DNA of 64,000 bases from Tribonema minus. Its lineage: Eukaryota; Sar; Xanthophyceae; Tribonematales; Tribonemataceae. Positions 9,130 to 63,317 of this stretch are shown here, in pieces. The stretch covers positions 524,654 to 588,653 of the forward strand of contig JAFCMP010000553.1 in assembly GCA_017506865.1 (NCBI GenBank). Direction: 5' to 3'. How positions within the stretch are numbered: the stretch's first letter is position 1; each line of letters begins with the position of its first letter. Under the pieces are notes generated by a model, which saw nothing but the letters and a program-made list of their open reading frames with translations, did not search any database and was not told the origin of the DNA. The translations under genes and the position numbers were made by a program.

Positions 9130-9664
9130 CGGTAGCGGCAAAGCGGTGCACTAACCTGCGCGGCGGCTTTGGAGTAGCTTGTTGCATAAACGTCACCATA
9201 TGCGACAGCTCTTGCCCTTCCCGCCTCCGTCAGGCTCAGGGGGGCGCGCGCGATGTGCAGCGCGCACTTGAATTGGCTTCGCAGGAAAAGATAGACAAAT
9301 ACGTAGTTTCAGGGGCCTTGGACTCGACTACACACACCCTATTTTCCGCAGCCTTCGACCATAATGATTTCGGCGCTATGTCACGCGACACCCAGGCGCT
9401 GCTTCACGCACTCGCCGAGCAGAGCTCGCAGGGCAGCTACAATCTTGCGCAGCGCGTTGCCTTTGGCTTCGCCGCACCTCCTGGCGTGGCGCTGGCATGG
9501 CGGCGCTGCGTGCGCTGCTGCGCTACAGCGCGCGCACGCACACGTGTCGTGATTGACAACTGGAACGCAGTCATCGCCCGTGATGGCGACGTCAGCGCCA
9601 ACCGCCGCATCGCACTTTTGCAGGTGCCGCGGCCCTCGCCGGTCAGCGCCACGCCCCGTAGATA
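9130..9664 (+). pseudogene. 5'-truncated non-LTR retrotransposon copy (endonuclease end of ORF2)
   Basis: The translation aligns with the last part of the ORF2 at 40078-44244 on the other strand, beginning just before the segment CTNLRGGFGVACC and ending at the terminal VPRPSP region. Loss of the 5' end with retention of the 3' end is the hallmark of target-primed reverse transcription. This copy reads EKIDKY where the longer copy reads EKIDTY, thus keeping the K-x2-K-Y form seen in restriction-like endonucleases. It has INVTI where the long copy has IDVTI, which removes the presumed catalytic Asp. It also has an insertion of two codons (FDHNDFG against FDHFG) and a longer insertion near 9470-9530. 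It is a dead fragment. Confidence 0.85.
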
Positions 9665-10421: not shown

Positions 10422-11186
10422 ATGCAGGTCTCTCCTACTCCACTGCTGGTAGTGCCGTGGGCGATTTCCATTGAGTCAACATCGACCAGCGGCGACGACA
10501 GCGCCGCTGCAGCAGCACCGCAAGCAACAGCAGCAGAGCGCTCTTTTCGCCGGCTGCAAGCCTCTCCTGTGCTTGTAGTGCCGTGGGCAAACATTGATGC
10601 CACCGTGTCCGACAGCGACAGCGGTGGCACCATCGAAGCACCACCAGCAGCGGCAGCAAATGCTGCCAACAGCACCAGACCTCGCGTCTGTGCGCAAAGG
10701 CGGCAGCGCCAACAGCCCAGCGCACATGGGCTACAACCCAAACGCAGCGGCAAAGGCTTTTGCGTGCATGAACGGGAGCACGCAAAGCGCACGGAGTGTG
10801 GCGGCGTTAGCATGTGCGAGCATAAGCGGGAGCGCCGGCGTTGCAAGCAGTGCGGGGGCGCCAGCTTCTGCATGCATGGGCGGCAGCGTCCAACGTGCAG
10901 GGAGTGCGGCGGCGCAGGTAGATGCGCGCATGACCGGCTGCGCACGCAGTGCAGGGAGTGCGGCCGCAGTAGCTTCTGCGAGCACGATGTTCGGCGCTCC
11001 CGCTGCAAGGAGTGCGGCGGCAAAAGCCTCTGCATGCACAAGCTGCAGCCAGCGCAGTGCACGAAGCGCAATTCGGTGCTGACGGTGAAGTGCGCGCACG
11101 GGCACACACACCGGTGCAAGGCATGTGGTGGCAGGCCCATCAAGGGCGCTGCCACACGGGAGCAGAGCAGCACTATCACTACATAG
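10422..11186 (+). CDS. Tandem Cys/His-repeat protein (C-x-H ... C-x2-C-G-G)
   Basis: 254 codons from an ATG. The N-terminal 110 residues are disordered and contain a short motif twice, LLVVPWA and VLVVPWA (10445-10475 and 10568-10592), each followed by an acidic Ser stretch. From about residue 110, units of about 18 residues repeat six or seven times. In each, CxH is followed by seven basic or polar residues, then C-x2-C-G-G (for example CKQCGGASFCMHGRQRPT). Each unit offers three Cys and one His, so the array probably binds zinc. Similar Cys/His repeats occur in algal predicted proteins of unknown role. A DNA- or RNA-binding role would be inference. The final GCKACGG-like unit is degenerate. 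An upstream exon cannot be excluded. Confidence 0.7.
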   Translation: MQVSPTPLLVVPWAISIESTSTSGDDSAAAAAPQATAAERSFRRLQASPVLVVPWANIDATVSDSDSGGTIEAPPAAAANAANSTRPRVCAQRRQRQQPSAHGLQPKRSGKGFCVHEREHAKRTECGGVSMCEHKRERRRCKQCGGASFCMHGRQRPTCRECGGAGRCAHDRLRTQCRECGRSSFCEHDVRRSRCKECGGKSLCMHKLQPAQCTKRNSVLTVKCAHGHTHRCKACGGRPIKGAATREQSSTITT

Positions 11187-44244: not shown

Positions 44245-44277
44245 TACGGTGGATGAGGGGAGCGCCGCACCGGCGGC

Positions 44278-46770
44278 TTACAGGCCCGAGGCGCCGCCGC
44301 CTCCCTCCGATGCCGGCGGCTGGGCCGTCGAGGTGGAGAGGAAGCGGTCGGCGGCGGACTGACCTTGGGGCAGCCCGCGCGCGGGGCGTGCAGCGGGGGG
44401 TTCCGCCGCCGAGCCCGGCGTGCGCTCAGCAGCCGTGCGCTTGCGGCTGGCGCGGGGTGTGCCACTGTCGGACATAAGCGCGCTGCTGTCACTGGCAGGC
44501 ATGGGGGGCTGCCTACTGCGCGAGGGGGAGGCGCTGCAGTCGCTGCCGTGCCGAGCCGCTGGCGACGATGCGCGCCGACACCGCGAGCGCCCGCGTGAGC
44601 AAGAGCGCGGCGGCTGCCGCGGCGCCGCCGCTGCCTCCAGTGCCACCGCGGGGTCCGCTGCCGCGCTTGCGGCCGCTGCCGCTGCCGCGCTGGCAGCGCC
44701 TACAGCAGGCGGCGGCGCGCCCGCCGCCGCCGCGCCTGCCGCCGCCGCGCCCGCCGCCGTTGCCCCGTCCGCCGCCACCGCCGCCGCAGCGCCAGCCGCT
44801 GCAGAGCTAGCCTCAAGGTCTCCCGCCACGGGCGTGGTGGCCACCGCGCCGGCGGCGTCCGCCGCCGGCACCGCCACGCTCGCAGCGCGCGCCGCTTCCG
44901 CTGTCAGCTGCGCCTCGAGTCGAGCGGTCGCCGCAGCGTTGCGCACCTGCTCTCCTTCGCGCAGGCTCCGTTGCTGCGCCGCCAGCCGCTCCGCACGAAC
45001 TTGCTCTGCCAGAGACCGGTCGCGATCGGCCTCAGCAGCCCGCTTTCCCGCCTCGGAGGCTGCCAGCAGCTTTGTCAGTGCCTTGACCTGCTGCTGCAGC
45101 CCCTTCCGCGCGGTCCTCCCCTCCAGGATGCCCCCCTGCAGCTGCTGAATGCGCTGCTCCTGGCCCAGCTGCGCAGGGTCCGCGTCGGCCGCCGGCGGCG
45201 GCGGCGAGGCGCCCGGCGACGCGCTCGCCAGCGCGGGCGTCGAGGCGGCGGCAGCGTCCGTCGCGGCGGCGCCGGTCGCCGCCGGCGCTGGGGGGTGCGA
45301 GGCGGCGGCGCCGGTGGGCGCACGCTGCGTCGCGGCGGCTGCCGCCGCGGCGGCTGCAGCCGTGGCTACCGCAGGGGCACCGGCGGCTGTGCCAGTGGCG
45401 GCGGCTGGCGTGGTGCAGGCCGCGGGGAGCGTGGTGTGCGCGCAGCGCGTTGCCCGGCACTGCTGACCCGGGCGCGTGAAGTGCCGTCGCAAGCAGGACG
45501 GGCACGCTGTCAGATTGTCAGGGCCCAGCAGCCGCAGCGCTACTTCCGTGCCGTCCACCGCGCATAGGACCGAGTGCGCGAGTCGCCGCGCAACGCCGCG
45601 GACCACTGTTAGCTCCCAAACACCCGCGGCGCCTGGCGATGCCGCCGACGCCGGCGCCGCGGATGAGGCCGCACCGTTAATGCCTACGCCGCAGGTCTTC
45701 AGAGCGCTGGCCAGCAGCAGAAAGGCGGCGGAAGTGCCGCCGCCGCCCGCCCGCAAGCGCACCGGCGCGATGGGCATGCCAGGAGCTGCGAGTGCGGGCG
45801 CAAGCAGCATTGCAAGCTGCGCTGCAGACCACGCCGCCGGCGCGCCGCGCACGGTGACCGTGACCGGGGCGCTCATGTCACCAGCGCGGGTGATGCGCAG
45901 GCGGAAGCCGCTGAAGCTGAAGTCAGCGGAGTCGCCGACCGTTCCGAGCGCCGCGTCAACGAGCGCGGCCGGCGCCCGCAAGCATAGCGTGCGGAAGTCA
46001 TCGCGAGGCGACAGAGGCCCCAGCGTCTCTGCACCCTTGAATAGGGACGCAAGTGAGGCAGCGTCTCCAGCGCCGGCCCTCGCCGCGTCGTGCATGTGCG
46101 TGAGCGCCGCCGCTAGCAGCTGCTGGCGCCCCCGCGTGAGTCGGGCGCGGCGCTGTGCAGCCGCCGCAGGGGTGCTGCGCTCGCGCTCGTGAGGCTGACG
46201 GGCCGGCGCGAGCTCTGCTAACAGTGCGCGGACGCTGGCCGGCAAGGCAGCCAAGTGCTCCTGGGTGTAGCAGGTGACTGGATCCACCGTAAACGAGACT
46301 AGGTCTGTGCCGGCTGCCGCCGCCGGCGGCACAAATGGCTGTCCCTCCGCTGTCGGACGGCCCTGCACGCGCGCCGCCATCGCCATGAGGCGGCCCGCAG
46401 CGGCTCCACCCTGGCGCCCCACCGCCGCGACAGCGGGGGGCACGAAGAAGTACTGCTCCTGTTCCGCGGCGTGGAACATCTCGCTCGCCTGTTGGTATAG
46501 CTGCCCTGGAGTGAGGGCGGATGGGGCTGGGGTTGGCGTGTAGCTGCCTCGGGGAGTGAAGTAGGCTCCATCGTGGCCGTGCAGCAGCCGTGCCTCCTCC
46601 CGAAGCAGGTTGCTCTTCGCTGTAAGCGACGGGGGTGTTGTCGCAGTTTTGGCGGCTTTGGCCGCCCACGAGGCAGCAGCAGCAGGAGGGGTGGCCGCGC
46701 GACCATTTGGGCCAGCTGGCGTGTCGCCAGTCGCCGCTGGCAGCACCACCTCCATCGCTTCGGATGGCAT
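44278..46770 (-). CDS. Non-LTR retrotransposon ORF1: nucleic-acid-binding, coiled-coil protein
   Basis: 830 residues if started at ATG 46770; the frame stays open upstream to 47043, but that sequence looks non-protein-like. A folded region (about residues 130-460) is followed by CPSCLRRHFTRPGQQCRATRC-type Cys motif (45450-45500), an Ala/Thr/Pro linker, and a coiled coil rich in Gln, Glu, Arg and Leu (about 44920-45160). Then comes a Ser/Arg-rich tail ending in polyglycine. ORF1 proteins of non-LTR elements coat the RNA, and the Cys motif plus coiled coil suit this. No named family is recognised. Confidence 0.7.
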   Translation of the reverse strand: MPSEAMEVVLPAATGDTPAGPNGRAATPPAAAASWAAKAAKTATTPPSLTAKSNLLREEARLLHGHDGAYFTPRGSYTPTPAPSALTPGQLYQQASEMFHAAEQEQYFFVPPAVAAVGRQGGAAAGRLMAMAARVQGRPTAEGQPFVPPAAAAGTDLVSFTVDPVTCYTQEHLAALPASVRALLAELAPARQPHERERSTPAAAAQRRARLTRGRQQLLAAALTHMHDAARAGAGDAASLASLFKGAETLGPLSPRDDFRTLCLRAPAALVDAALGTVGDSADFSFSGFRLRITRAGDMSAPVTVTVRGAPAAWSAAQLAMLLAPALAAPGMPIAPVRLRAGGGGTSAAFLLLASALKTCGVGINGAASSAAPASAASPGAAGVWELTVVRGVARRLAHSVLCAVDGTEVALRLLGPDNLTACPSCLRRHFTRPGQQCRATRCAHTTLPAACTTPAAATGTAAGAPAVATAAAAAAAAAATQRAPTGAAASHPPAPAATGAAATDAAAASTPALASASPGASPPPPAADADPAQLGQEQRIQQLQGGILEGRTARKGLQQQVKALTKLLAASEAGKRAAEADRDRSLAEQVRAERLAAQQRSLREGEQVRNAAATARLEAQLTAEAARAASVAVPAADAAGAVATTPVAGDLEASSAAAGAAAAVAADGATAAGAAAAGAAAAGAPPPAVGAASAAAAAAASAAADPAVALEAAAAPRQPPRSCSRGRSRCRRASSPAARHGSDCSASPSRSRQPPMPASDSSALMSDSGTPRASRKRTAAERTPGSAAEPPAARPARGLPQGQSAADRFLSTSTAQPPASEGGGGASGL

Positions 46771-47274
46771 GAAACGACTTGAAGTTGAAATGGGGCGGGC
46801 CCTGCCCCGCCCCTGGGACACGGTGGCGGCTGCCCCTCGTGGAGGGTGCCGAGCGTTGGCTGAACAGCAGGCACACAGGGTGGGAGTCACCAACGTGGCG
46901 CCAGCAAAATCCACCCAGAAACGTTTTGTCTTTTGAAGTTGAAGTTGACCAACTTGAGTTGCGGAAATCTGTTCTCTTGCTCGAGGATCTGCGCCGATGT
47001 TCAGGATGAGACAGACCGCAGTCGCTGGCCTCATCTTTCTCACAGCGCCAATGACGCTTCATTCTATGAGTGTCAACAGCAATGGAGACCTCTCCAGGTT
47101 TGTTTGACGAAGTCGCATCCTGTCGTACTGCCTTTCCCTGTGTGAAGCCGCTTCTTCAAGCCCGAAGCATACAAGGTTCATGACTAAACACATGTTTTTG
47201 CACGAAAGCTGAGCTTTCTGCTGGTCTGTGATGCTGCCGTTCGCAGCAGTAGCGGCGTGCAGCGTCGTCCGAGG

Positions 47275-49393: not shown

Positions 49394-49685
49394 AGAAAAT
49401 CACGCGTGCAGGCTAGCACGCCACACCGCACCAATGCGTAGCGCAGAGGCAGACGGAGGCAGCCACAAGGTGACACACACACTCGGTGGTGTTGCCGGAA
49501 AGGAAACCGGTGAAGGAAGTGATATTACTATCAATAGCAAACCTGCGCGTGCCAGCTCAGGCTTGCTGAGTCACCTACACCATTGATCTGGAGCTGATCT
49601 CGAACAGCTCTCGAACAAACTGCAACGTCAAGTGCACAACTTCAAGTGCAACCTGACTGCTACAAAACAGTGCTCATTTCAACAC
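49394..49685 (+). repeat. 292-bp direct repeat, left copy
   Basis: Identical to 50263-50554 except for one base noticed (CCGGTGAAGG here against CCGGCGAAGG). The first 90 bases contain copia-type coding sequence on the minus strand that is continuous with the RNase H fragment only in the right copy. Confidence 0.9.
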
Positions 49686-49790
49686 CCTCCCCCAGTCAAG
49701 ACTCCCATGAGCTTGACTGTCAAAACTGAAATGACAACTGTGACAGAGCCTGGTGCCTTACTCTGCGCTGCCACTAAACAACAACTGCAA

Positions 49791-50351
49791 TCATGCGCTG
49801 CCCAAAAGCACCGCTGTGTGGAAGTGGTGCTGAACTGCGCCTAGCACTTTGGTCAGCACATCTGCATGCTGCTCCTGTGTGCGCACTGACTCTACTGATA
49901 CTAGTCCGTTCTGCACTTGCTCGCGCGCATAATGGTACTTTACATCAATGTGCTTAGTGTGCTGCGAGACACCTGCGTCCGCAGCTAAATGGATCGCCGC
50001 TGCATTGTCCTCCATAATGCGCACCACCCCCTGCTCCGCGCCAAGAAACTCCAGCAGCTGCGCCAAAGGCCGCACCTCCTTGCTAGCGTCGCAAAGCGCC
50101 ACGTACTCCGCCTCCGTTGAAGAAAGCGTGACGCAAGGCTGCAGTTTCGAGCGCCAAACTACCGCCGCTCCGCAGAGCAGAAACGCGTAGCCGGTCTGAC
50201 TGCGCCGCGTAGAGCTGTCGCTGGCGAACGACGCGTCCGCATAGCCGACCAGCTGCAGCTGCAGAAAATCACGCGTGCAGGCTAGCACGCCACACCGCAC
50301 CAATGCGTAGCGCAGAGGCAGACGGAGGCAGCCACAAGGTGACACACACAC
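49791..50351 (-). pseudogene. Ty1/copia RNase H fragment
   Basis: The minus strand encodes LVGYADASFASDSSTRRSQT, then LSSTEAEYVAL, then VRIMEDNAAAIHLA and HTKHIDVKYHYARE, the classic end of a Ty1/copia polyprotein RNase H (catalytic D in YADA, E in STEAEY, D in EDNAA). The segment before it (LRYALVRCGVLACTRDF) corresponds to the usual LRYL-x-GT-x-DL region and lies in the right-hand 292-bp repeat. Protease, integrase and reverse transcriptase are absent. The catalytic residues are intact, but the fragment is isolated. Confidence 0.85.
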
Positions 50352-50554
50352 TCGGTGGTGTTGCCGGAAAGGAAACCGGCGAAGGAAGTGATATTACTAT
50401 CAATAGCAAACCTGCGCGTGCCAGCTCAGGCTTGCTGAGTCACCTACACCATTGATCTGGAGCTGATCTCGAACAGCTCTCGAACAAACTGCAACGTCAA
50501 GTGCACAACTTCAAGTGCAACCTGACTGCTACAAAACAGTGCTCATTTCAACAC
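50263..50554 (+). repeat. 292-bp direct repeat, right copy
   Basis: Second copy, 577 bp after the left one. Because part of it is coding sequence continuous with the copia fragment, the pair looks like a recent tandem duplication or insertion of the element end with its flank rather than a pair of LTRs. Confidence 0.9.
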
Positions 50555-50665: not shown

Positions 50666-53133
50666 TATGAAGGTTGATGTACAAGGATACCACGATTGTC
50701 CGTTGCACGGGAAGATGCTGTGGGAGCATGCACTGAGCCTGGCAACTCAGTCGTCACCATCACGCTCGTTGTCATTCCCATTGCGTGCCTCAACTTGGTG
50801 AACCTTTAAAGTTTAGTGCAACCTTATCGCGTGCACTTGACCTGGCTATGTGTGTCATTTTTTTAAAGTTCCTCCAGAAAGTGTTATCATCATTGTAGTG
50901 CGCAACTGCCAGCCTGGCCAAGGCTTCTCTGCTCGAATTGACGTATAGACGAAGGACTTACCTGCAATTGCATTAATGAAAACAGAGGAGATATCTCACA
51001 AGCAGATCACATGGGGTCCTGTCCTCTTGTCCGTGGATGCACTGATCCGCAGATGAATCAGCCAGCTTCATCACCCATATTTTAGGACTTTGCCTTTAAG
51101 CCAATTTGAAATTGAATGCATACATGCATATTTGTCCATTGGCAAGTTGCAAGAATGTTGTGTGGGCCAGGGCTCGCAATTTGAAACTGGAAGATTGGTT
51201 GAGCACAGAAGCGCTTCAAAAGCTAATTTCGAGGTGTACCCGGTCCGTTTTTAGAGCTGTTCGCTATAGCATTGCCATTGCACCTGGTGTGCAAGCTTGC
51301 TAGCCCAGCTGTGCTTCTGCAGTGCGTTCTTGGTATATTGCAATGGCATACCATTACAGTGGTCAATCAGAACAACTTGAAGTTGATCAGAGAAACCACA
51401 GGCCACCACCCCCGCATGACCTGTACGCTCAAGCACGATAATCATCATATTATATCAATAGTGTGCAGCAAGCGGCGGTATACCACAAGATAATATAGTA
51501 CCTGAATCTGCTGCTACATAAAGCACACTAAAGCACTTTGACGGGGCAATGCTCGTCACGCGTGCGCTCATGAGCACGCAAAGGTGCCACAGTGCCATGC
51601 AGCCTCACAGGCTCAGAAGCTCAATCAGAATGACCCTGACGTCAGGTAGTACCTGCTGTGACTGTTCTCCCTGACCGCAACGGCTGCCGCACCAGGCACA
51701 GAGCATCGCGCGTGCGCCATGGATGAGCGCTGACTCGAGCAATTTCAGTTTACACATGGAGGCTGCCAGTGGTGAAGGCCCGGGCAGGCCTCACTGACAG
51801 GCCCTGCTGCCAGACTGAGTGCCACTGGGCAGGCACAGGGTGGAACTTCCGCTTGAAGGCTATCGTGCCATGCCGAGCGGTGACAGGCAACGATCGTGAC
51901 GTTGGGCGCTGCCGCTTGCACTTTGCACGGTGAAGCGAAATTTGAATCGCTGAATGAAGCGAATGAAGCATGCATGTTCAAGTTGCCGCATATGCAACGG
52001 GCGGGGAAGAAGAAATTATTTGGGAGTCGGATTTCATCCGATGAGTCTACTAGTATAACTTCGTGCAAATGTGAGACTTGCAGCGGTGGTGCTGTCGTAA
52101 AGCGGCCCCCTTATCTGGCTAGTTCAACCTAAAAAGAGGGTTTCCCCTTGGGTCGTACTTCAACTGTGTGCGGGAACGCTGTAGGGCTTAGTAATCAGAC
52201 ACGACTTTAACCTTCAACATGGCACAGCTTCTTCTGCTTCTACCTGTTTAGCCACGCTTGCATATCAGGGTGATATTGCACTTGGGGAGGGCGCTCCGGT
52301 CCACCTCCCACGGCACCAGGCAGTGGGCATTTCCGGCTGTTTCAAGTCAAGGTTGAGACTGAGTCTCACACACTTTCACCCTCTGTGGTTGGCACACCAC
52401 CACAATGGCTGATCTCGGCAGGTGCTGACCTGTCACGTACAAGTTCGCGTAGTGCTCGGGGCACTGCACGCACGGGAGTGTTCGCTGTTTCCGTCGGCAC
52501 CTCTGCTGCACGCAACTGAGGTGGCGGCTGGGGTTCGGGTTTCTGCACCATAAGCTGTGCTGTCTACTGGCGTTCTTTCGGGAGCGGCACTTACAGCACT
52601 CGTGAGTCCAGGACTTGGGGGCCAGTCACACACGGAGTGCCGGGCAGACAGCAGCTGTAAGCGGCGACAACGCCATCTCCGTTTTTCGGGCGGATATTTT
52701 GCTTGGGTAAGTTGCTGCCGCGCCTGCGCAGGGCACAGCAGTTGTTTACCTCTTTTGTTTGCGATACCTATCGCCTGTGTTGGTTCACGAGTCTCTGGCT
52801 CGGGTGAACGGCGTGTGCGTGCGTCAGACTGCACGCCGTGACCGTATCTTTTTATTGCGGGCGGAGCAAATCTTTCCGTATTTGCGTAAGTTTGACACAT
52901 ACTGCTCTTCACGTTCGCGTAGCTTTGCGTTCTTGCTACATTACTCTCTACGGGCTCGTTCACTTCGTTTGGGTGTGCTACTTCTGCTGTTTCGTCTAGC
53001 GTCAAATTACATTGACGCTGGGGGGGAGAACTCGAACAGCAGTCGGCACTGAACAAGCAGGGTTCAGCAAGTAAGGAGTGATACTGAATATTTCTCAATT
53101 AATTTTTCAAATGATTTTCATGAAGTAGTCAAT
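50666..53133 (+). other. Non-coding region before the methyltransferase-bearing Ty3 element
   Basis: About 2.4 kb. An ORF at 51896-52132 (+) encodes CKCETCSGGAVVKRPPYLAS, faintly like the C-x2-C-x-GK end of a copia integrase zinc domain, but too short to assign. The part from about 52140 to 53133 is presumably the 5' LTR/leader of the next element. It could not be matched to 63318-64000, so no LTR is called. Confidence 0.35.
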
Positions 53134-56082
53134 ATGTCAGACAGCGGAACTAGCTCTCAGACCAGCACGGCTCATGGAGTGCATAGGGCACCTGAGAGTG
53201 TGGGCTCGTTCACCACATCTGTGAATTCAAGCCGTAAGGCAAAAATTGAGGCGCTGGTGGAAACAGTACCTCTGCAAGGCAGGACCATTCATAAGGGAGG
53301 TGACCCACTGACGGTAGCACTGACGCAGGTTGAGAAGCGCAATGTGGCAGCTCTTTGGCACCGCTACCCAGAGGGGTTCTTGCAGGCGCGCAGCGCACTT
53401 AAGCGTATGCGCGAGGAAGATGTCTGGCTGGTTAACCAGAGATCCGAAGTCCGGGCAGATGAGGAGCCCCACACCGGTGAGCTAGTTTTGGTGTGGTTGG
53501 AGCGTGATGAAAAACGCATTGCCCGTGTAGGGGTGGTGGTCAAGCATGATGACAAAACGTTTGCGACGCGGCTGCAGCGTGACTATGCGCGCGGAGATGA
53601 TGAGCCCGCGCAATGGGAAGTTGAGTTGGTGGGGGGTATAGAGCCAAACTATGTGAGGTGGAGGCCGTCTGGGTATGAGTTGGCCATTCTACACCCAGTG
53701 AATCCGAAGGGTGCAGGTGTGAATAGGGAAGGACGACCGGACCAAGCCGTGATTGTGCAGGTTGCGCCGGCCTGGTGCCAGCCGTTGGGCCGTTTCCCTA
53801 GAGCTCATGCCATCACTGACCGCATTGTTGTACGGACACTGGTGAACCCTACAGCGATGCAGGTCGCGGCGCACACTCTGACTCCTTGCATTCTCCCACA
53901 GGGTACCCCTATGAGGGCCAAAATAGGCAGGGCATGGCGCACATGTGTCATGGTGCAGGATTTTGTGGGCACTGACACTCATGTGCTTGACAGGAATGTG
54001 TTTGACCCCTTGTTGCTTGTGCGGGGCGATGACACGGGAGAAGACTTTTATTTGCCTGCGTCGTGCACCAGATTGCAAGTTGCTAGACCCTACTGGGTGC
54101 AGCCGTTGGCCCCTGCGGAGCCGCTGGCTGACGCTGCCGACTGGGCGCGCGTAGAGGGCCCATTGGCTGCTGACTGGCTTGATCCTGACAAGGGCCCTGT
54201 ACTGACAGTGCCTCCCTCGGTGCCAATCGCAGGCCTTGAGTTCACTATGCCAAGAGATGCCATAACTGACCGCTGTGTAGACCGCACTCTTGCTCAGCTC
54301 GTACACCAAATGAGGGGTAACCTCAATGACCCCATAGCTGTGAACGAGCTGCATACGTGGCGCGAGCAGGCTCACCAGTTGCAGCTGCAGCAACAGGGTT
54401 TGCCGCTGCAGCAGCACCAGCAGCAGCCGCAGCAGCAGCCGCAGCAGCAGCAACAGCAGCAGCCGCAGCAGCAGCAGCAGCATCAGCAGCAGCCGCCGCC
54501 GCCGCAGCAGCAGCAGCAGGCTGAGCCTCAGGGTCAATGGCAGTTGTCAGAGCGGTGGCAACAACACCGGCAGCAGCAGACGGAGGACGCACAGCCGCCG
54601 CCGCCGCAGCAGCAGCAGCAGCTGGCGCCATCGCCGCCGCCGCTGCAGCAGCTGCCAGTGGCGCCGTCGCCGCCGCAGCAGCAGCAGCAGCAACCGCCGC
54701 CGCCGCCTCCTCCGCCGCAGCAGCTGACGGAGAATGACGACCCGCAAGTGATCACCAGGCAAGAGGCAGCCCAGCAACGCACGGCTGCCTTGCGCGCGAT
54801 GGCTCCTCGGGCGCTCAAAGGTGTGTCACATGAAACGCTCTATTTTTTGGATGACCCCCCGGAGGCAGGTTTAGAGTACCGAGGGGTGGACAACAAGGCC
54901 ATCAGCCATGAGGTCATTACGTGCATGATGCAGGAGTGGTTGGACTCGCTTGCAGCGCGTGTGTCGTTTGAAGGGGTGCAGTCGATCCCCGATCCCAACT
55001 CGGACCTGCGCACTTGTCCGTCATATGTTGCTTTGATGCTGCAATACTGCTTGTCCGCCGAGCTGCGTAGGAGCATTAAGGCGTTCCTGCACGAACATAG
55101 GGGCGCTAATGGCGACCTGTCAGGCAGGCAAATCAGTGCGTTGCATGCTCACCTCGACCGCGAGTATAGTGAGTCAATGCAGCGTAGCAAGGCAGACACA
55201 AGGTTGGAGCAGCTGCGCCTGGAGCCGGGAGTGAGTATCCAGGTATTTTTATTGGACTTTGAGAAAGTGCTGCGATACACATTGCACGGATTGGAGTTGG
55301 GAGAGAAGGTGTTCAGAGACAGGTTTGTCAGAAGGCTCATTGACACTCTGGCAAGATCCAAAGATGTGAAGGCCCGAGTTGAAAAGTTCTTGGAGGCACT
55401 GGTAGAGTTCAGGGTGGTGCTCGAGCGCCAAGGGACGGATCAAGTGGACATGGCGTCGGTAAGGCTGAAACTGCAGCAGGCAGAGAGTGTAGTGGCTGCA
55501 ACGAAGGGCATGTCAGTGCGCGCATACTTGGCGGCAGAGGTGAGTAAGAAGTCTGAGAAGCGGGGGGGCTCGACATATGCATTTAGTGGTGGCGGGTCAG
55601 AATCTGAGTCGGAAAACTCTGAGGGCGGCGCTTCTGGGGCTGACGTTCTTGCCACGCAGGGCGGCAGCGGCGCTGTGCCTAACACCCGGGCTACTGACAC
55701 TAACGCTGAAACTCCGTGGAATGCAGCGCTGGACAGGTTCAGCTCCCATCTTCAACAGCATGCCAGTGACATGAACCAGCGTTTTGACTCACTTATCCGC
55801 GCAATGAGTCAACGTCACGGTGCTCCTCTGCAAACCGCTCCTCACAGGCAGCTATACTACCCTGCTGGCAACCGCCAGGGCCCGCCCAATTACGGCAGGC
55901 AGGGCTGGGGCGCCGCGCCCAACATCGGGGGCAACATCAACTCCAGGCCAAACGGGGGTTTGAACTCCAACACCGGGGGGGGGCTCGTGTCGCTAACAAC
56001 TTCCCCCTTGATCCCTCCAGTCTCTCCCCTGAGTTGGTGCAGGCTGTGCTGGCAATTGTACACGGCGAGAGGCCAGCAGTAG
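53134..56082 (+). CDS. Gag polyprotein of the methyltransferase-bearing Ty3 element
   Basis: 982 codons from ATG. The N-terminal half (to about residue 410) is a folded region of unknown type with segments LVLVWLERDEKRIARVGVVV and TPMRAKIGRAWRTC. Residues about 415-532 form a Gln/Pro-rich tract. About 590-775 is capsid-like: MMQEWLDSLAARVSFEGVQ, LRRSIKAFLHEHRG and VSIQVFLLDFEKVLRYTLHG match the helical retrotransposon gag style. A Ser/Glu-rich linker and a Gly/Asn/Arg-rich tail (GNRQGPPNYGRQGWG) follow and may bind RNA. No CCHC knuckle is seen. The ORF overlaps the protease frame by about 50 bases. Confidence 0.75.
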   Translation: MSDSGTSSQTSTAHGVHRAPESVGSFTTSVNSSRKAKIEALVETVPLQGRTIHKGGDPLTVALTQVEKRNVAALWHRYPEGFLQARSALKRMREEDVWLVNQRSEVRADEEPHTGELVLVWLERDEKRIARVGVVVKHDDKTFATRLQRDYARGDDEPAQWEVELVGGIEPNYVRWRPSGYELAILHPVNPKGAGVNREGRPDQAVIVQVAPAWCQPLGRFPRAHAITDRIVVRTLVNPTAMQVAAHTLTPCILPQGTPMRAKIGRAWRTCVMVQDFVGTDTHVLDRNVFDPLLLVRGDDTGEDFYLPASCTRLQVARPYWVQPLAPAEPLADAADWARVEGPLAADWLDPDKGPVLTVPPSVPIAGLEFTMPRDAITDRCVDRTLAQLVHQMRGNLNDPIAVNELHTWREQAHQLQLQQQGLPLQQHQQQPQQQPQQQQQQQPQQQQQHQQQPPPPQQQQQAEPQGQWQLSERWQQHRQQQTEDAQPPPPQQQQQLAPSPPPLQQLPVAPSPPQQQQQQPPPPPPPPQQLTENDDPQVITRQEAAQQRTAALRAMAPRALKGVSHETLYFLDDPPEAGLEYRGVDNKAISHEVITCMMQEWLDSLAARVSFEGVQSIPDPNSDLRTCPSYVALMLQYCLSAELRRSIKAFLHEHRGANGDLSGRQISALHAHLDREYSESMQRSKADTRLEQLRLEPGVSIQVFLLDFEKVLRYTLHGLELGEKVFRDRFVRRLIDTLARSKDVKARVEKFLEALVEFRVVLERQGTDQVDMASVRLKLQQAESVVAATKGMSVRAYLAAEVSKKSEKRGGSTYAFSGGGSESESENSEGGASGADVLATQGGSGAVPNTRATDTNAETPWNAALDRFSSHLQQHASDMNQRFDSLIRAMSQRHGAPLQTAPHRQLYYPAGNRQGPPNYGRQGWGAAPNIGGNINSRPNGGLNSNTGGGLVSLTTSPLIPPVSPLSWCRLCWQLYTARGQQ

Positions 56083-57416
56083 GCCCCACTGCGCCCACGT
56101 GGTCCACTGCGTTTGGCGTGGGGGCAGACAACGAAGCAGAGTACTTCTTCTCGGCGTGCACCTACTTCGCGTGGGATCCCTCGGCAGGCCGGGTGTGTCT
56201 GAGCTGCGACCCCGACAAGTTCGCTGAGTGCTGCTGCTTCATGGCAGATGATGAGGTAGCAGAGGTGAGTAGTCTGGTCTGCGTGGCAGGTGCTGATGCT
56301 GGTGGCCAAATTGGCAGGATGGCCCCAGTGGTGCTCATGGTAGAGGCGCAGATTCACAATGTCATGCCTGCAGTGGTTTATCTGGATTCGTGCGCAGGCT
56401 GCGATGTGATGCAGTTCAGGGCATACTGCCTTCTGTTGCGTAAGCTGAGAGACAGGGCAGAGACGGCGCAGCAGGCAGTGCGTTTGGAGCAATCCCAGCG
56501 CCAGCCCACATTTAAGGCGATTCGTGGGGTTGGCAGGCGCCTGGTAGCAGTGATGTTTATGGTGACTGTGCAGGTGGAGATTGCGGGCGTCTCAGCTCAA
56601 GTTGACTTTCATGTGAGCAACCAAATCGACCCTCAGTTCCTGCTCAGCTACAGCACCATTGCGCGTATGCGGTTGGACATGCTCACGAGTCGCTCGCCTG
56701 CTATGGTACAGCATCCTGACTTCCCTAACAAAGCAGTCAAGTCGCTGACCCCTGATGAGGTAGCAGCCAAGCGTGACCAATGGCGTAGCGCGCGCAATGC
56801 TGGCAACCAACAGGGAGTACAGTCGGCCGAAGTTGCAGTTGACCTAGGCTCGGTGTTGAAGTTTGAGTATGGGTCGCTGCCCGCGGAGCTGTTGGAGGAG
56901 CGTGCGGAGAATGGTGAGCCTGGCCCGAAGTTTGTGTTGAGCAAGGGCACGCAGCGAATGCAACCACCTATTGACCTTGACAGTGTTGATGATGAGAGGG
57001 TAATCAGGGTGGATGATCTGCCGAAAGCGGGATGGGAGGTAGACGTGCAGCACAGACGCTGGCACAACGGTGAGTTGAGTGAGGTAATGTCGGTCAGCTC
57101 AGAGTCGATTGACAGTGCCTCAGAGGACGGAGAGCCGGCTGACAGGTATGTGGAGGAGACAGACTGGACAAAGATGTCAGGTGAAGATTCAGCAGACGAC
57201 AGTGACATGGAGCTCGATGCTGCGCGCACTCAGTCTTGTGATGAGACAGTTGAAGTTGAAGTTGACGTGGCGCTTGCTGAGCTTGATGCAGATAGGCGCT
57301 CAGGGTGCTACGACAAAAAGGGGGGTCAACTTGGGCAGTGCAGGATTGCCACCCAGACAGGTGGGCAGCAATTTCACCAGTGGAGCGCGGTGAGTACCCA
57401 AACGTTGAGCACATGA
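56034..57416 (+). CDS. Protease region of the methyltransferase-bearing Ty3 element
   Basis: The frame is -1 to gag. Around 56380 it has VVYLDSCAGCDVMQF, in the position and context of a retropepsin active site (usually D-S/T-G-A), here D-S-C-A-G. FHVSNQIDPQFLLSYSTIAR near 56610-56670 takes the place of the late hydrophobic ILG-x-D motif. The second half is acidic and Ser/Asp-rich, probably an unstructured linker. The unusual Cys in the active-site loop may mean that the protease is diverged or inactive. It ends in a 112-base overlap with the methyltransferase frame. Confidence 0.6.
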   Translation: MVQAVLAIVHGERPAVGPTAPTWSTAFGVGADNEAEYFFSACTYFAWDPSAGRVCLSCDPDKFAECCCFMADDEVAEVSSLVCVAGADAGGQIGRMAPVVLMVEAQIHNVMPAVVYLDSCAGCDVMQFRAYCLLLRKLRDRAETAQQAVRLEQSQRQPTFKAIRGVGRRLVAVMFMVTVQVEIAGVSAQVDFHVSNQIDPQFLLSYSTIARMRLDMLTSRSPAMVQHPDFPNKAVKSLTPDEVAAKRDQWRSARNAGNQQGVQSAEVAVDLGSVLKFEYGSLPAELLEERAENGEPGPKFVLSKGTQRMQPPIDLDSVDDERVIRVDDLPKAGWEVDVQHRRWHNGELSEVMSVSSESIDSASEDGEPADRYVEETDWTKMSGEDSADDSDMELDAARTQSCDETVEVEVDVALAELDADRRSGCYDKKGGQLGQCRIATQTGGQQFHQWSAVSTQTLST

Positions 57417-59653
57417 CCGTGTCAAGCCTCACAGTGGTAGACTTGGGGGCGGGCATTGGCAGCTCCGTGAAAGGTGCGATTATGGGAGGGGCGCAGGTAG
57501 CATTGGCAGTGGAGATAGCTGATACATATGCTGCCATCTTTCGCGCATCTCACCCCAACGTGCCCTTGCTGGTGGCAGACTACACATCTGATGAGGTGTG
57601 GGACAGGATTATGGAGATAGACCCTGACCTAGTAACTGCCAGCACCCGTTGTGAAGGCGCCAGCAGACAGCGCTTCAAGCCAGCTGGGGAGATCAGAGTT
57701 GATGCAGAAGCAAATCAGGTAACCCCAAAGTTGGTGGACAAAGCCATTCAGCGAGGCGTGAAATGCCTGATGATTGAGAATGTGCCAGAGATCAGCGAGA
57801 CAATCAGCGGGCAGTTGGCGATTGCGCATGCGCACCAGGCAGGATACCATGTGTTGTCATTTGAGCTCTCAGGTGCAGACCTAGGGTTCCCTAACCTGCG
57901 CAATCGCGTGTTCTTCCTCATCACCAGGGGAGACCAAACTGTTGTAGACACCTTGCGTACAGTGGCAGGCAGGATTGAGGAGGCCAAGTATGGCGGTCAC
58001 AAGCAGGAGAGAGTGCAGATTAACCCTGGTGAAATGTGGGGCGTGTCTAACCCTGTGTATGTGCTGCCGCCGCGCAATGCCACAGCTCGCTGGACACATG
58101 ACGCCAAGCGCAGTGCTCCCACTCTCGTTTCACGCCACTTCCATGTGTTTCGCCAGCCTGCAGACGACCACATGCGTCGAGGTGACATTGAGTTCTCGCT
58201 CTCACAGCGGTATGTCCCCTCGCAGGCTGACGTGATGCGAGCCAACGGCTTGTGGTGGATCAAGGTGCCGCCGGGGGTCAGTCAGACTGCCCTGGCAAAA
58301 GGTTGTGGCCAGATCGTGCTGGCACCAGTCATGTCATTTATTGTGCGCATCTTGCGCACTGAGCCTGTGTTGTTTGACACGCAGCATCGCCTGCACCCAG
58401 CGGCGTCGCGTCTCATTGAGGATGGCATTTTTGTGCAGACACTTGGCCCGTATGCACTGCCTGAGGACCACCCTCAGGGTGGCACTCTCGTGGGGCCTGT
58501 ACTCATTGCCTCCTCTCTGCCTAGCACGCCATTTTTGCGCAAGCTACGGCACATGCACGGCTCGGTCAAGAGCGCTGGCAACAACAACCGTGAGCCAGGA
58601 CCACAGCCGACCTCTACCTCAACTTCAACTTCAAGCACCAGCACCACGGCAAGAAGCACCGACGCGGACAGCGGTGAAGACGCAAGCAACGGCGACGGCG
58701 ACGCCAGCGGTGAAGACGCTGAAGGCCATCGCAGCGGCGGGGCGCGCACGCCAGGTAAGATGACAATGTTGGAAGCATACAACCAAGTGATGGATGAGCT
58801 TGATGAGCGCTTGGGCAAGAATCACATGTCAGAAGACCCAGGCGTAGCCGCTACCGCCAATGCTAAATTGCCAGGGTGGGACGATATTCTGCTAGTTGCT
58901 GAGCAAGGCGCATCGGCGCACAAGCAAGCTACAGTACGCGTTGCCAAACAATACCCAGTAACTGAACCTACAACAGCAGGAGTTGCAGTGTTGGTGACGT
59001 GGACAGGGTGGGTGCCGCCGGGCAACTATGTGCTAGAAGGGGTAGTAGACCCAAAGGGGCACTGGGCAGTGCGGCGCCAGCGAGTGTTGGTGGAAGAAGG
59101 TAATCAAACCAGCACTATAAACATCACTATTGTGAAGCGTACCGGTAAGCTGAAACCGGGTGTTAAAGTGGGGCATCTACACTTGTTGGATGAGCGGATG
59201 TGGAAGAAGCAGGTACACCAACATGAAGTAGGCATTACACGCAGTTTGCTGAAGCTGTCCGCGGAGTCGTTGAGACAGTCTGATACACCTGCGCGTGACA
59301 GTAAATTGGCAGCGGTCAAAGCCAGGATAGCGAGTGTTGAACGCAATGATCGTTTGGCCACAGCCTGCTTCATGGTAGCGATGGGGTGTGTCACGCCTGC
59401 GGAAGCACGTGCACAGTCTGAAGGGGCCATAAATGGAACAGCTGCGGAGAATTTGTTTGCGCAGAGTAGTGCGCATGGTTGGGGGCGCCAAGTTGAAGTT
59501 GAGGGGATGAGCACTGCTGATGACAGAACAATCCCTGTAGCAGGCACGGTACCGGGGTACGACCGCCTGCAGAGCCCCCACCAGCGAAAACTTCTTGCAC
59601 TGCAGTCTCAGAAACTCACGCTGGAACTAAACAGGAAGCAAAGATTGATGTAG
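57305..59653 (+). CDS. Retrotransposon C5-cytosine DNA methyltransferase fused to pre-RT linker
   Basis: 782 codons in the frame -1 to the protease. It should transfer methyl from S-adenosylmethionine to cytosine C5. Motif I is VVDLGAGIGSS (residues 44-54) and motif II is AVEI (68-71). Motif IV is ASTRCEGASRQRF, giving catalytic Cys116 with Arg in place of the usual Pro. Motif VI is MIENVPE (Glu158), motif VIII is FPNLRNRVFF (195-204), and KGCGQIVLAPVMSFIVRIL fills the place of motif X. The target-recognition region between VIII and X is short. A Ser/Thr/Asp-rich linker (58610-58740) follows. Then comes a beta-rich segment with IVKRTGKLKPGVKVGHL, like the linker that precedes reverse transcriptase in Ty3 elements, so the enzyme sits between protease and polymerase. 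Comparable methyltransferase capture is reported in dinoflagellate and charophyte retrotransposons. Confidence 0.8.
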   Translation: MLRQKGGSTWAVQDCHPDRWAAISPVERGEYPNVEHMTVSSLTVVDLGAGIGSSVKGAIMGGAQVALAVEIADTYAAIFRASHPNVPLLVADYTSDEVWDRIMEIDPDLVTASTRCEGASRQRFKPAGEIRVDAEANQVTPKLVDKAIQRGVKCLMIENVPEISETISGQLAIAHAHQAGYHVLSFELSGADLGFPNLRNRVFFLITRGDQTVVDTLRTVAGRIEEAKYGGHKQERVQINPGEMWGVSNPVYVLPPRNATARWTHDAKRSAPTLVSRHFHVFRQPADDHMRRGDIEFSLSQRYVPSQADVMRANGLWWIKVPPGVSQTALAKGCGQIVLAPVMSFIVRILRTEPVLFDTQHRLHPAASRLIEDGIFVQTLGPYALPEDHPQGGTLVGPVLIASSLPSTPFLRKLRHMHGSVKSAGNNNREPGPQPTSTSTSTSSTSTTARSTDADSGEDASNGDGDASGEDAEGHRSGGARTPGKMTMLEAYNQVMDELDERLGKNHMSEDPGVAATANAKLPGWDDILLVAEQGASAHKQATVRVAKQYPVTEPTTAGVAVLVTWTGWVPPGNYVLEGVVDPKGHWAVRRQRVLVEEGNQTSTINITIVKRTGKLKPGVKVGHLHLLDERMWKKQVHQHEVGITRSLLKLSAESLRQSDTPARDSKLAAVKARIASVERNDRLATACFMVAMGCVTPAEARAQSEGAINGTAAENLFAQSSAHGWGRQVEVEGMSTADDRTIPVAGTVPGYDRLQSPHQRKLLALQSQKLTLELNRKQRLM

Positions 59654-59721
59654 AATCGCAACCTGGTGTTGACACTGGCGCAGGTACAGAACCTGTCAAT
59701 GAGTGTACGGACGAAGAAGCA

Positions 59722-62481
59722 GTGCAGCGAGCGCGGGAGTTGGAGTGGTTTGCCGCGTTCAAAATAGGGGAATTGGATCACCTTACAAACAAGCAGAAAG
59801 AAATTTTAACGGATTTGCTGCGTAGCATGGCCAGGAAAGGTATCTTCTCATTTGATGGCAGGCCCGGAAAGACGTCGTTGGTCCGTCACCATATTGATGT
59901 AGGGGATGCTAGACCAGTACGTGCAAGATTGCGCAAGTACAGCTTGAAGGAGCTTGAAGTGCTGTGGAAGGAGATAGATTTTTTGATTAAGAAAGGTGTG
60001 ATTGAACCGTCAAATTCGCCTTGGAACTCCCCTTTGATGATAATACCCAAGCCGGATGGGGGACTGCGAGTAGTGCAAGACTTGAGGGCGGTTAATCAAG
60101 CGGTCAAAGAAAAGGGCAGCGGCCAGGATGGTTTTCCGTTGCCACGCATTGATGAGGTGCATTCAGCGTTGAGTGGCTCTGAGTGGTTCAGCTCTATGGA
60201 CGCGGTAGCTGGATTCTGGCATGTTGAACTTGATAGAGAATCCAGGCCGCTAACAGCATTTCAGACCAAATGGGGGTGCTACCAATGGAAGGTTGGACCC
60301 ATGGGGCTCATGAATATGCCATCTACTTTTCAGCGTCTGATGCAGTTGGCCATGGGACATGATGCGTTGTGGGTGTATGCATTAGTGTATGTGGACGATA
60401 TTTTGGTTTTCAGCAAGACTTTCGAGGAACTCATGAAGCATTTGAAGGTAGTGCTGAGCCGCTTGCTCTCAGTTGGTATCAAGCTGAAGCCATCAAAGTG
60501 TCATTTCGCAATGAAAGAGGTCAAGTTTCTGGGCCACATAGTGGATGCGCGAGGTAAACGTGTGGACCCATCAAAAGTGGCAGCCATCGACAAAATACCA
60601 CTTCCCACTGACCTCCATGATGTGCGTTCCTTTTTGTGTATGGCAGCATATTATAGGCAGTACATTTCCAATTTTTCTACAATCACGGAGCCCCTGGTAA
60701 ACCTCACGCGCAAAGGTGTGCCGTTTGAGCTTTCTGATGATTGTGTAGCAACTTGGCAGGTTTTGAAGGAGGCGCTAAAAACGTCCCCTGTGCTGGCTCA
60801 TCCAGACTTGAAAGGGATCCTTAATGGTACAGTCAAGCTGGTATTGCAAACAGATGCTTCAGACTATGGAGTTGGAGCAGTGCTGACGCAAATTTGTCCT
60901 GTCAATGGTGAGAATCCCATAGCATATTATAGTAGGACTTTAAAAACTGCCGAGCGCAACTACGGCACCTATGATAGGGAAGCGCTAGCGGCCGTGGAAG
61001 GGGTTCACTACTTCAGGCAGTTTTTGCATAATGGCAACACGTTCACTCTACAAACTGATCACTCTGCGCTAGCGCATCTCATGGGTGGCTCAGAACCGCG
61101 AACTAAGCGGCAAGAACGTTACATATCAGAACTGCAAGAATACAACATGGATATAGTACATAGGCCTGGTAAAGAGAATGGTAATGCAGATGCTCTCTCT
61201 CGTATCAGGGACGGTGCTTATGTCATGATGTCTGCAGGTGTTGACCTCTCTGTGAATGCAGCGCAGACCTCGCTGCATGGGGGCGTGCAGAGGCCCACAC
61301 CTGACACCAAAGAAAGAATTGCAGTGCCTGTTCTTGCTTTTAGCGACGTTGAGAAGACAGGTGGAGTGCAGTGCTCGAGAGTGCAGGTCAGCATGACAGC
61401 GGTGGCGCAATTGTGGCCAGAGGGCGAAGATGATCACCTAGGAGAACCAACGCTGGACGATGGAGACGAGTTTGACAGTGACGAAGAAACAGGTGGTTCA
61501 TTAAAGTTTAAGAAGCGGCAGCGTCCAGTTTTTCAGTCGAGTGACTTAGCAGATTCTTTGGGCAGCGATCCAGTGCTTGGCAAGGTTGTGAAATACCTCC
61601 AAGCAAAAGCCAGTAGTAGAGCTCATGGTCTAACCCCAGTTGAAGTTGAAGAGGCGCGTGCTTTTGAACGTGCAGGTTATTATATGCGCGAAGCTAAGAT
61701 GTATATTGCTGCAGGGGGAAGGTCACACAGGGCAGGGACAGACTTGTTGGTTATACCAAAGGCTCTGCGCGAGCGCGTGTTGCTTGAGTGTCATGACGGT
61801 GCAATCGGGGGAGGCCACAGTGGTTTTGCTCGCACCTATGACAAGGTTAGGCGCAGGTACTTTTGGCCAGGCATGTATGCGGATGTTTTTCATTGGGTGC
61901 TTTCTTGCATGGCGTGTCAGAAGCGCAAGTCAAGGCGTGATGCACGAATTAGGGTACATGGCTTTGGAGATATTGATTTGCAACATGCATTCCAGTTGGT
62001 AGGGTTTGATATAGTAGGTCCTCTGCCAACATCAGACGATGGCAACCGTTTTATTTTGGTTTTCACGGACTACCTCACTAGGCGGCCGGAGGCCTTTGCA
62101 ATCCCTGATAAGTCAGCCCAGACGGTAGCGCGCATCATCGTTAGTGAAATAGTACCTAGGCATGGGTGCCCGCAGATGTTCCTGTGTGATAATGCGAAAG
62201 AATTCAGGGGAGCGTTGATGAAAGAGCTGACCAGATTGCTGGGCGTTGAGCAACGTTTCACTTCACCCTACCACCCCGCATGCAACGGTCTCACTGAGCG
62301 CACCAATGGCTCACTTGTGAACATTTTGTCCATGCTTGTAGAAGACAATCAACGCAACTGGGATCGTGTGCTCCCGCAGGCCTCTTCAATCACCGCGCTT
62401 GCACTAGCACCACCTATGGCATGTCATCTTTCCGCATGTTGTACGGTCGCGAGCCGTTGTTGCCGTTTGAGGCTATGCTAG
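59722..62481 (+). CDS. Pol: reverse transcriptase, RNase H and integrase of the methyltransferase-bearing element
   Basis: The frame is open from about 59522; residues here count from 59722. Reverse transcriptase: VIEPSNSPWNSPLMIIPKPDGG, then WFSSMDAVAGFWHVEL, FQRLMQ and YVDDILVFS (catalytic Asp pair near residue 223), KFLGHIV. RNase H: LQTDASDYGVGAVL (about 377), YDREALAAVEGV and TDHSAL, ending HRPGKENGNADALSR. Integrase: H-x3-H near 690 (CHDGAIGGGHSGF), CMACQKRK (about 729), then D in GFDIVGPL, D in LCDNAKEF and E in GLTERTNG. The best-conserved protein of the element, and apparently functional up to the frame change near 62385. Confidence 0.93.
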   Translation: MQRARELEWFAAFKIGELDHLTNKQKEILTDLLRSMARKGIFSFDGRPGKTSLVRHHIDVGDARPVRARLRKYSLKELEVLWKEIDFLIKKGVIEPSNSPWNSPLMIIPKPDGGLRVVQDLRAVNQAVKEKGSGQDGFPLPRIDEVHSALSGSEWFSSMDAVAGFWHVELDRESRPLTAFQTKWGCYQWKVGPMGLMNMPSTFQRLMQLAMGHDALWVYALVYVDDILVFSKTFEELMKHLKVVLSRLLSVGIKLKPSKCHFAMKEVKFLGHIVDARGKRVDPSKVAAIDKIPLPTDLHDVRSFLCMAAYYRQYISNFSTITEPLVNLTRKGVPFELSDDCVATWQVLKEALKTSPVLAHPDLKGILNGTVKLVLQTDASDYGVGAVLTQICPVNGENPIAYYSRTLKTAERNYGTYDREALAAVEGVHYFRQFLHNGNTFTLQTDHSALAHLMGGSEPRTKRQERYISELQEYNMDIVHRPGKENGNADALSRIRDGAYVMMSAGVDLSVNAAQTSLHGGVQRPTPDTKERIAVPVLAFSDVEKTGGVQCSRVQVSMTAVAQLWPEGEDDHLGEPTLDDGDEFDSDEETGGSLKFKKRQRPVFQSSDLADSLGSDPVLGKVVKYLQAKASSRAHGLTPVEVEEARAFERAGYYMREAKMYIAAGGRSHRAGTDLLVIPKALRERVLLECHDGAIGGGHSGFARTYDKVRRRYFWPGMYADVFHWVLSCMACQKRKSRRDARIRVHGFGDIDLQHAFQLVGFDIVGPLPTSDDGNRFILVFTDYLTRRPEAFAIPDKSAQTVARIIVSEIVPRHGCPQMFLCDNAKEFRGALMKELTRLLGVEQRFTSPYHPACNGLTERTNGSLVNILSMLVEDNQRNWDRVLPQASSITALALAPPMACHLSACCTVASRCCRLRLC

Positions 62482-63317
62482 GAGATATACGTGTGTCTAA
62501 GTTGTCCAACAGGTGGCGTACTGCCGCGGAGCACCTGGAGGCTTCCCATGACGCTATACGGGAGGGCTACCGCCTGGTCCAATCATCGCTTCAAGAGCAG
62601 GAGGAGAGGCTGCGCGAAGAAGCAGCAAAGGAGCAGGGCTATGCGCGGCGCTTCCAACCCGGTGATACAGTACTAGTCCATTATCCGCCTGTGCGCAAAG
62701 GTCTAAGCCGCAAGTTGAAGGCAGATCGGTGGCTGGGCCCTTTTGTAGTAGAGAGGCGTATACCGGGCTTAGACACTTATGTCTTGCGTGCAACGCATCA
62801 GGGTCAGGTGATGTTGAAGTACATCCACTGCAGTAGACTGAAGCTTGTGAAAGAGAGGCATGCAGTGGTGGAAACACCCCCTTTTACAAACGTTCCACAG
62901 GAAAAGCGAGTTACCTCCACCCGTGACGCAGCTGACAAGCCAGTAACGCCAGCAGCCTCAACGCTGCCACGCACTCCATGCCACTATGCCAAGGGTGATA
63001 TTGTGAAGGTGTCTCTGAAAGCTTGGAATGAGACATCAACTGACAGTTGCGATGGCTATGTGGTGCATGTACAGGCCAATGGTATGGTGGAGTTTATTTG
63101 CCCAGTTGACGCTCCCGAACCAGATGAGCTGATTGCGCAATTGCAGGATTTTGCCGGACGCTATCGAGGAAGGGCAGCAAGGGGCGACAAGCATTTCACC
63201 AATCTCATATACACGCTCCACCATACATCATCTTTCCTTACAGAGCGTGTAGGCACATTCTGGCACCCTCCTGCCGCTGCAGCGCGAGTGCTCACCTTCA
63301 TCGACGGGAGCTCGTGA
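62421..63317 (+). CDS. Integrase C-terminal part in the -1 frame
   Basis: The sensible sequence switches to this frame near 62385 (TYGMSSFRMLYGREPLLPFEAM is the usual helix after the integrase core, with the typical YGREP). It continues through QPGDTVLVHYPPV and KLKADRWLGPFVVERRI, the GPF/Y-type C-terminal DNA-binding fold, to SRLKLVKER. The last 150 residues are of unknown type (KGDIVKVSLKAW...DGYVVHV...NGMVEFI), beta-rich. There is no chromodomain. The stop is TGA at 63315-63317. Confidence 0.85.
   Translation: MSSFRMLYGREPLLPFEAMLGDIRVSKLSNRWRTAAEHLEASHDAIREGYRLVQSSLQEQEERLREEAAKEQGYARRFQPGDTVLVHYPPVRKGLSRKLKADRWLGPFVVERRIPGLDTYVLRATHQGQVMLKYIHCSRLKLVKERHAVVETPPFTNVPQEKRVTSTRDAADKPVTPAASTLPRTPCHYAKGDIVKVSLKAWNETSTDSCDGYVVHVQANGMVEFICPVDAPEPDELIAQLQDFAGRYRGRAARGDKHFTNLIYTLHHTSSFLTERVGTFWHPPAAAARVLTFIDGSS

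Follow-up and report, generated by a model that had tools for sequence, protein, structure and literature searches.

A C5-cytosine methyltransferase domain within the Pol region of a Ty3/Gypsy retrotransposon copy from Tribonema minus

Retrotransposons that carry a cytosine DNA methyltransferase (DNMT) are already known, having been reported in a few algal lineages only, namely in LINE and DIRS elements of dinoflagellates and in a Gypsy element of the charophyte Klebsormidium nitens (PMC5890265). As described in the sections of that study drawn on here, the Symbiodinium elements SymbioLINE-Dnmt and SymbioDIRS-Dnmt3 encode a cytosine methyltransferase within or beside the reverse transcriptase (RT) open reading frame (ORF) and occur in hundreds of copies, while the K. 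nitens element KnitGypsy-Dnmt3 encodes an enzyme in its Pol region that is a DNMT3 by phylogeny, shows a DIRS-like repeat order and is present in many copies under purifying selection (PMC5890265). The sections used of other reports describe DNMT3 inside LTR (long terminal repeat) Copia and DIRS elements (PMC12344493), ParB-methyltransferase proteins in algal DNA transposons (PMC12477816) and an orchid Ty3/Gypsy element with an m6A RNA demethylase domain (PMC9289625); in one transcriptome collection, the green algae yielded no DNMT3 (PMC9998398, in the part consulted). Here we analyze a 64,000-nucleotide stretch of the Tribonema minus assembly GCA_017506865.1 (contig JAFCMP010000553.1, positions 524,654 to 588,653, forward strand; the whole stretch is referred to as the window), in which a C5-cytosine methyltransferase domain appears to form part of a Ty3/Gypsy retrotransposon. 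As in the Symbiodinium elements, the methyltransferase accompanies an RT, but the element is of the Ty3 type rather than LINE or DIRS, and as in KnitGypsy-Dnmt3 it lies in the Pol region of a Ty3/Gypsy element. The orchid element likewise combines Ty3 with a nucleic-acid modifying enzyme, there an RNA demethylase and here a cytosine methyltransferase. Searching the open-licence literature (bioRxiv excluded), we found the K. nitens case as the sole Gypsy element with a cytosine methyltransferase in the text covered. The dinoflagellate and charophyte precedents invoked by the initial annotation of this locus are thus correct (PMC5890265, in the sections used), and the arrangement in the window is a real, unusual variant.

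The evidence supports the presence of a C5-cytosine methyltransferase domain in the ORF at 57305-59653 (782 residues), which was delimited exactly in the initial annotation and lies inside a stop-to-stop open frame of 785 codons; when the element was simulated 200 times from its dinucleotides, no ORF exceeded 361 codons. The ORF starts with GTG, which carries little meaning since this is a eukaryotic element whose ORF limits are set by frame changes. The family search by profile hidden Markov models (HMM), on which the initial annotation had staked the assignment, placed Pfam family PF00145 on residues 43-216 (E 2.2e-08, 34.4 bits against a curated cut-off of 22) and the PHROGs family phrog_116, DNA methyltransferase, on residues 32-292 (5.2e-16), while the NCBIfam dcm model matched at E 0.044, under its own cut-off. 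A sequence search of the PDB with the ORF returned DNMT2 at 3.6e-4 and 5e-4 and the prophage methyltransferase 3g7u at 0.0089. The regions assigned to the domain and its frame are as follows.

57296..59650, forward strand: open frame with the methyltransferase domain, a low-complexity spacer and the putative pre-RT linker (stop-to-stop frame, coding score)
57419..58450, forward strand: C5-cytosine methyltransferase domain, approximate limits, with the Pfam part at 57431-57952 (Pfam, PHROG, alignments, model, Foldseek)
57434..57460, forward strand: motif I, VVDLGAGIG (two alignments)
57650..57652, forward strand: codon of the catalytic Cys of motif IV, STRCEGAS (invariant column C88 in alignment A4)
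57776..57784, forward strand: motif VI, ENV (invariant columns 130-132 in alignment A4)
57899..57907, forward strand: motif VIII, RxR of LRNRVFF (invariant columns 171 and 173 in alignment A4)

The C5-methyltransferases share sequence motifs that are conventionally numbered (I, IV, VI, VIII and so on). The three stretches singled out in the initial annotation, VVDLGAGIG, MIENV and LRNRVFF, are present in the ORF and, in alignments with other C5-methyltransferases, fall on motifs I, VI and VIII. In alignment A4, which comprises 27 sequences (the window domain and 26 other methyltransferases), columns were counted as conserved if they were at least 90% identical in the others, and the window domain retains 26 of 42 such columns. 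Amongst these are D18, L19, G22 and G24 of motif I, the catalytic cysteine C88, E130-N131-V132 of motif VI, P168, R171 and R173 of motif VIII, as well as T245 and R263. The position of motif X (GNAVPP) depends on the alignment, falling on GCGQIVLAP in A3 and on VPPG (IKVPPG) in A1 and A4.

Structure prediction, also proposed at the outset as a check, yielded a model of the catalytic part. The AlphaFold model built on A4 has a mean pLDDT of 66.4 with 111 residues at 90 or above; residues 11-182 are for the most part confident, and the catalytic part is mostly above 80, whereas a prediction from the single sequence without alignment was poor (mean pLDDT 40.3). A Foldseek search with the catalytic-domain model gave 843 PDB matches at E≤0.001, and among the matches listed, 50 of 50 are C5-methyltransferase entries, including MET1/DNMT1, DNMT2, M.HhaI, M.HaeIII, the CMT ZMET2, EhMeth, a carboxymethyltransferase and a prophage enzyme. 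The listed matches align to roughly one half of the model, and their TM-scores, taken by query length, are near 0.4.

The element around the domain is, by its sequence, of the Ty3/Gypsy type, having an RT-RNase H unit followed by an integrase and a Ty3-like RT. Downstream of the methyltransferase, the RT-RNase H-integrase ORF matches the Ty3 Gag-Pol chain at 6.3e-92, and Pfam identifies RVT_1 (1.4e-33), RT_RNaseH (5.2e-29), Integrase_H2C2 (1.3e-21) and rve (1.6e-10) in the RT frame. Together with PF00145, PHROG 116 and Foldseek for the domain, this bears out the proposal of a C5-methyltransferase in a Ty3/Gypsy element. The further proposal that the domain sits between protease and RT, followed by a pre-RT linker, holds for the RT downstream, while protease and linker lack support from any of the tools. 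The remaining parts of the element were assigned as listed here.

53053..56079, forward strand: gag-like open frame with a Q-rich middle and a Gly-rich end (stop-to-stop frame; position, by eye)
55788..57413, forward strand: putative protease frame with an LDSCAG motif (open frame; motif by eye)
58730..59650, forward strand: putative pre-RT linker region (by eye, position)
59524..62478, forward strand: reverse transcriptase, RNase H, integrase zinc and core domains (Pfam; Ty3 Gag-Pol 6.3e-92)
62298..63314, forward strand: C-terminal part of the integrase in another frame (open frame; integrase continuation by eye)

The Pfam scan of frame 53053-56079 found no gag family, and the putative protease frame had no Pfam or PDB match at E≤1, the DSCA motif being recognized by eye alone. 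LTRs were not detected anywhere in the window; since this ends at 64000, the right LTR may lie beyond it. Beyond the integrase end, at 62421-63314 (forward strand), there is an extra stretch (HYAKGDIVKVSLKAW...) that could be an additional C-terminal domain of Pol; its weak Pfam match is at chance level. A second Ty3-like element with integrase and chromodomain is located at 4751-7985 (forward strand), and its two scanned ORFs matched neither an RT family nor a methyltransferase; the putative linker gave no meaningful match to this element (best E 1.4).

To judge whether the methyltransferase is coded in the style of its surroundings, a codon model trained on the RT was applied to all six frames of the element's ORFs. 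The methyltransferase frame scored +0.143 per codon, with its five other frames all negative. When this frame was divided into blocks of 240 bases, 9 of 10 scored above zero, the exception being the low-complexity spacer block at 58496 (-0.09). The gag, protease, linker and integrase-tail frames each score highest in their own frame, although one reverse frame of the tail reached +0.02. Based on the shared open frame and the codon scores, the methyltransferase appears to form a single coding unit with the region preceding the RT, coded in the same style as the rest of the element.

As its five open frames succeed one another, each with a -1 shift, the element contains four frame changes, and two of the junctions contain runs (nine G and A5G6). 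At the gag/protease and protease/methyltransferase junctions, where there are runs of G, a programmed -1 frameshift is possible. However, the final shift lies within the integrase core and is hard to see as programmed, and decay or sequence error is therefore at least as likely an explanation of the frame changes. Given four such changes, the last of them within the integrase core, either the copy has decayed or its sequence contains base errors, and plain reading of the window copy would not yield all its proteins.

For the domain's origin, we compared it with bacterial and phage enzymes. Methyltransferases of phages match it at up to 6e-8 (13 records) and those of plasmids at up to 2e-8 (37 records). 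When 668 ORFs from 91 loci were searched locally, the highest scores, up to 49.2 bits where DNMT2 in the PDB reached 23.2, went to a family of phage and prophage C5-methyltransferases that mostly read SPCCQ at motif IV (L001, L008-L087) and to other phage and plasmid C5-methyltransferases. The SPCCQ enzymes align with the window domain across its whole length at 20-27% identity; they are free-standing phage enzymes, unlike the retrotransposon-borne domain, and a common clade is unsupported. This comparison is biased in that eukaryotic proteins entered it via the PDB only, with DNMT4, DNMT6 and the K. nitens element outside it. When the PDB sequence search was extended to E≤10, four sequences matched: two DNMT2, of which the best scored 3.1e-4 and 23.2 bits, the prophage methyltransferase and an unrelated LysM protein, with DNMT3, DRM, DNMT1 and DNMT5 absent among the four. 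The LysM-like match (residues 264-296, E 0.094) was judged to be due to chance, as these residues align where motifs IX and X are located. With a profile made up mainly of the phage family, 52 PDB sequences were matched, none named DNMT3, a result that bears on the phage family and not on the window domain. Single-protein queries of IMG/VR with the methyltransferase, RT, gag and linker proteins, a search that reaches close relatives only, returned no relative, and megablast against phages returned no match.

Phylogenetic trees, a type of check suggested in the initial annotation, gave the domain no supported placement. The first tree sets the window domain apart, by a starred branch (100/99), from a 19-row phage/plasmid group containing the SPCCQ family, whereas in a second tree without L089 it joins that same group with poor support (85/54). 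Grouping it with the narrow phage family, DNMT2 or DNMT1 was not rejected in any case by the approximately unbiased (AU) test (p-AU 0.206, 0.266 and 0.251, respectively). A phage origin, favoured by scores and alignment and unsupported by the trees, is consequently not claimed. Like the SymbioLINE enzymes, the domain may represent an orphan lineage (PMC5890265, in the sections used). In contrast to KnitGypsy-Dnmt3, it has no DNMT3 match in the PDB and reads STRCEGAS at motif IV, differences that come from separate analyses rather than direct comparison of the two sequences.

The reading we favour is that of a Ty3/Gypsy copy whose Pol took up a C5-methyltransferase ahead of the RT and after the putative protease, with the element's own cDNA as the probable substrate; taken as a whole we consider its chances even. 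The domain and its union with the RT unit are favoured by the match to the methyltransferase family, the Ty3 RT downstream, the single open frame, the RT-like codon style and the retention of Cys, ENV and RxR, while self-methylation is favoured by the published retrotransposon DNMTs, of which those of DIRS elements methylated CG in yeast (PMC5890265, in the sections used). By analogy with that study, an intact relative would produce the methyltransferase domain within Pol and carry it with RT and integrase into the virus-like particle, where the new double-stranded cDNA would become methylated at its cytosines. A new copy would then arrive pre-marked, and the host might be less prone to treat it as foreign, or it might settle in silent chromatin. 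Several observations weigh against this reading. Only one copy is known, with four frame changes and no further copy within the window, so that the further case of capture foreseen in the initial annotation is plausible while resting on a single broken copy. Sixteen of the 42 conserved columns are altered (e.g. F20 to G, G25 to S, P86 to T, Q89 to E and Q169 to N), and motif IV reads STRCEGAS at the place where PPCQ is found in most of the compared enzymes, P and Q being replaced and Cys retained in TRCE. The branch of the domain is very long (5.46 changes per column, and 6.64 in the tree without L089), and its target-recognition part has no confident model, residues 183-277 being below a pLDDT of 50. 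CpG depletion, the direction expected for self-methylation, was not significant, the observed/expected ratio being 0.73 in 11 bins of the element and 0.81 in 37 GC-matched bins of the window, each of 1 kb (Mann-Whitney p = 0.12). Furthermore, the K. nitens Gypsy enzyme was inactive in yeast, and the LINE enzymes likewise produced no methylation there, results that the authors regard as inconclusive (PMC5890265, in the sections used).

These altered residues, in particular the loss of P and Q from motif IV and of F and one G from motif I, and the long branch also form the case for a domain that is real and retained by the element without transferring methyl groups, serving instead as a nucleic-acid or S-adenosylmethionine (SAM) binding module in the particle. 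Since Cys, ENV and RxR, held to be central, are retained, and the residue preceding Cys varies in the best-scoring phage family as well, which mostly has SPCCQ and thus also a non-P residue there, we regard this as rather unlikely. A methyltransferase gene fragment that landed in, or survived only in, the window copy and is useless to the element would fit a single known copy with frame breaks, but the 785-codon open frame continues towards the RT in matching codon style, which makes a recent in-frame landing improbable and a one-off event of this kind clearly unlikely. That the domain methylates RNA, either the genomic RNA of the element or its primer tRNA, is suggested by the tRNA methyltransferase DNMT2 as top PDB sequence match (E 3.1e-4) and by the RNA methylation raised for LINE enzymes (PMC5890265, in the sections used); yet this match is weak (23 bits), phage and plasmid methyltransferases outscore it and the trees neither support nor reject placing the domain with DNMT2 (p-AU 0.266), leaving this very unlikely. 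The frame changes at the nine-G run and at A5G6 do suggest base errors, but they fit small gaps and not a chimeric join, and one frame and one codon style extend across the methyltransferase and the region before the RT, so that a junction created by misassembly is extremely improbable.

A more specific version of the favoured reading, cytosine methylation of the element's own cDNA, would have a Ty3/Gypsy lineage independently capturing a non-DNMT3 C5-methyltransferase of bacterial or phage type, which now marks the cDNA in a fast-changing form whose catalytic loop (TRC-E) is unusual; this we put forward tentatively, as a doubtful though serious possibility. If true, this element would be, in the literature searched, the first of the Ty3 type to carry a cytosine methyltransferase other than DNMT3, and its capture the second in the superfamily. 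Cytosine methylation is a usual means by which hosts silence transposons, which raises the question of what methyltransferase-carrying elements gain. A second, unrelated capture in Ty3 would point to a repeated solution rather than an oddity of one charophyte, and would offer an independent system in which to test self-methylation of cDNA.

The window varies in GC content from 49 to 75% in 2-kb bins, and its ORFs contain long Gln, Gly and Ala runs, which together with the second Ty3-like element and the GC-rich RT element described next may be reminiscent of green algae; Rfam and tRNA scans of the window were empty. On the reverse strand, a GC-rich (71%) element at 40078-47043 contains a 1388-residue ORF with a reverse transcriptase (RVT_1 1.4e-08; RT element 40078-44244), preceded by a 921-residue ORF without a family match. 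A direct repeat of 292 bp, 99.7% identical, lies at 49394-50554, and the adjoining ORF 49791-50351 resembles a Copia RNase H end by eye, with no Pfam match. At 10422-11186 (forward strand), an ORF without a Pfam match encodes repeated Cys-rich units of the HxRxRxxCKxCGG kind. Finally, 9126-9650 and 40099-40581, 31 kb apart, share inverted repeats, which are about 350 and 130 bases long and 90-92% identical.

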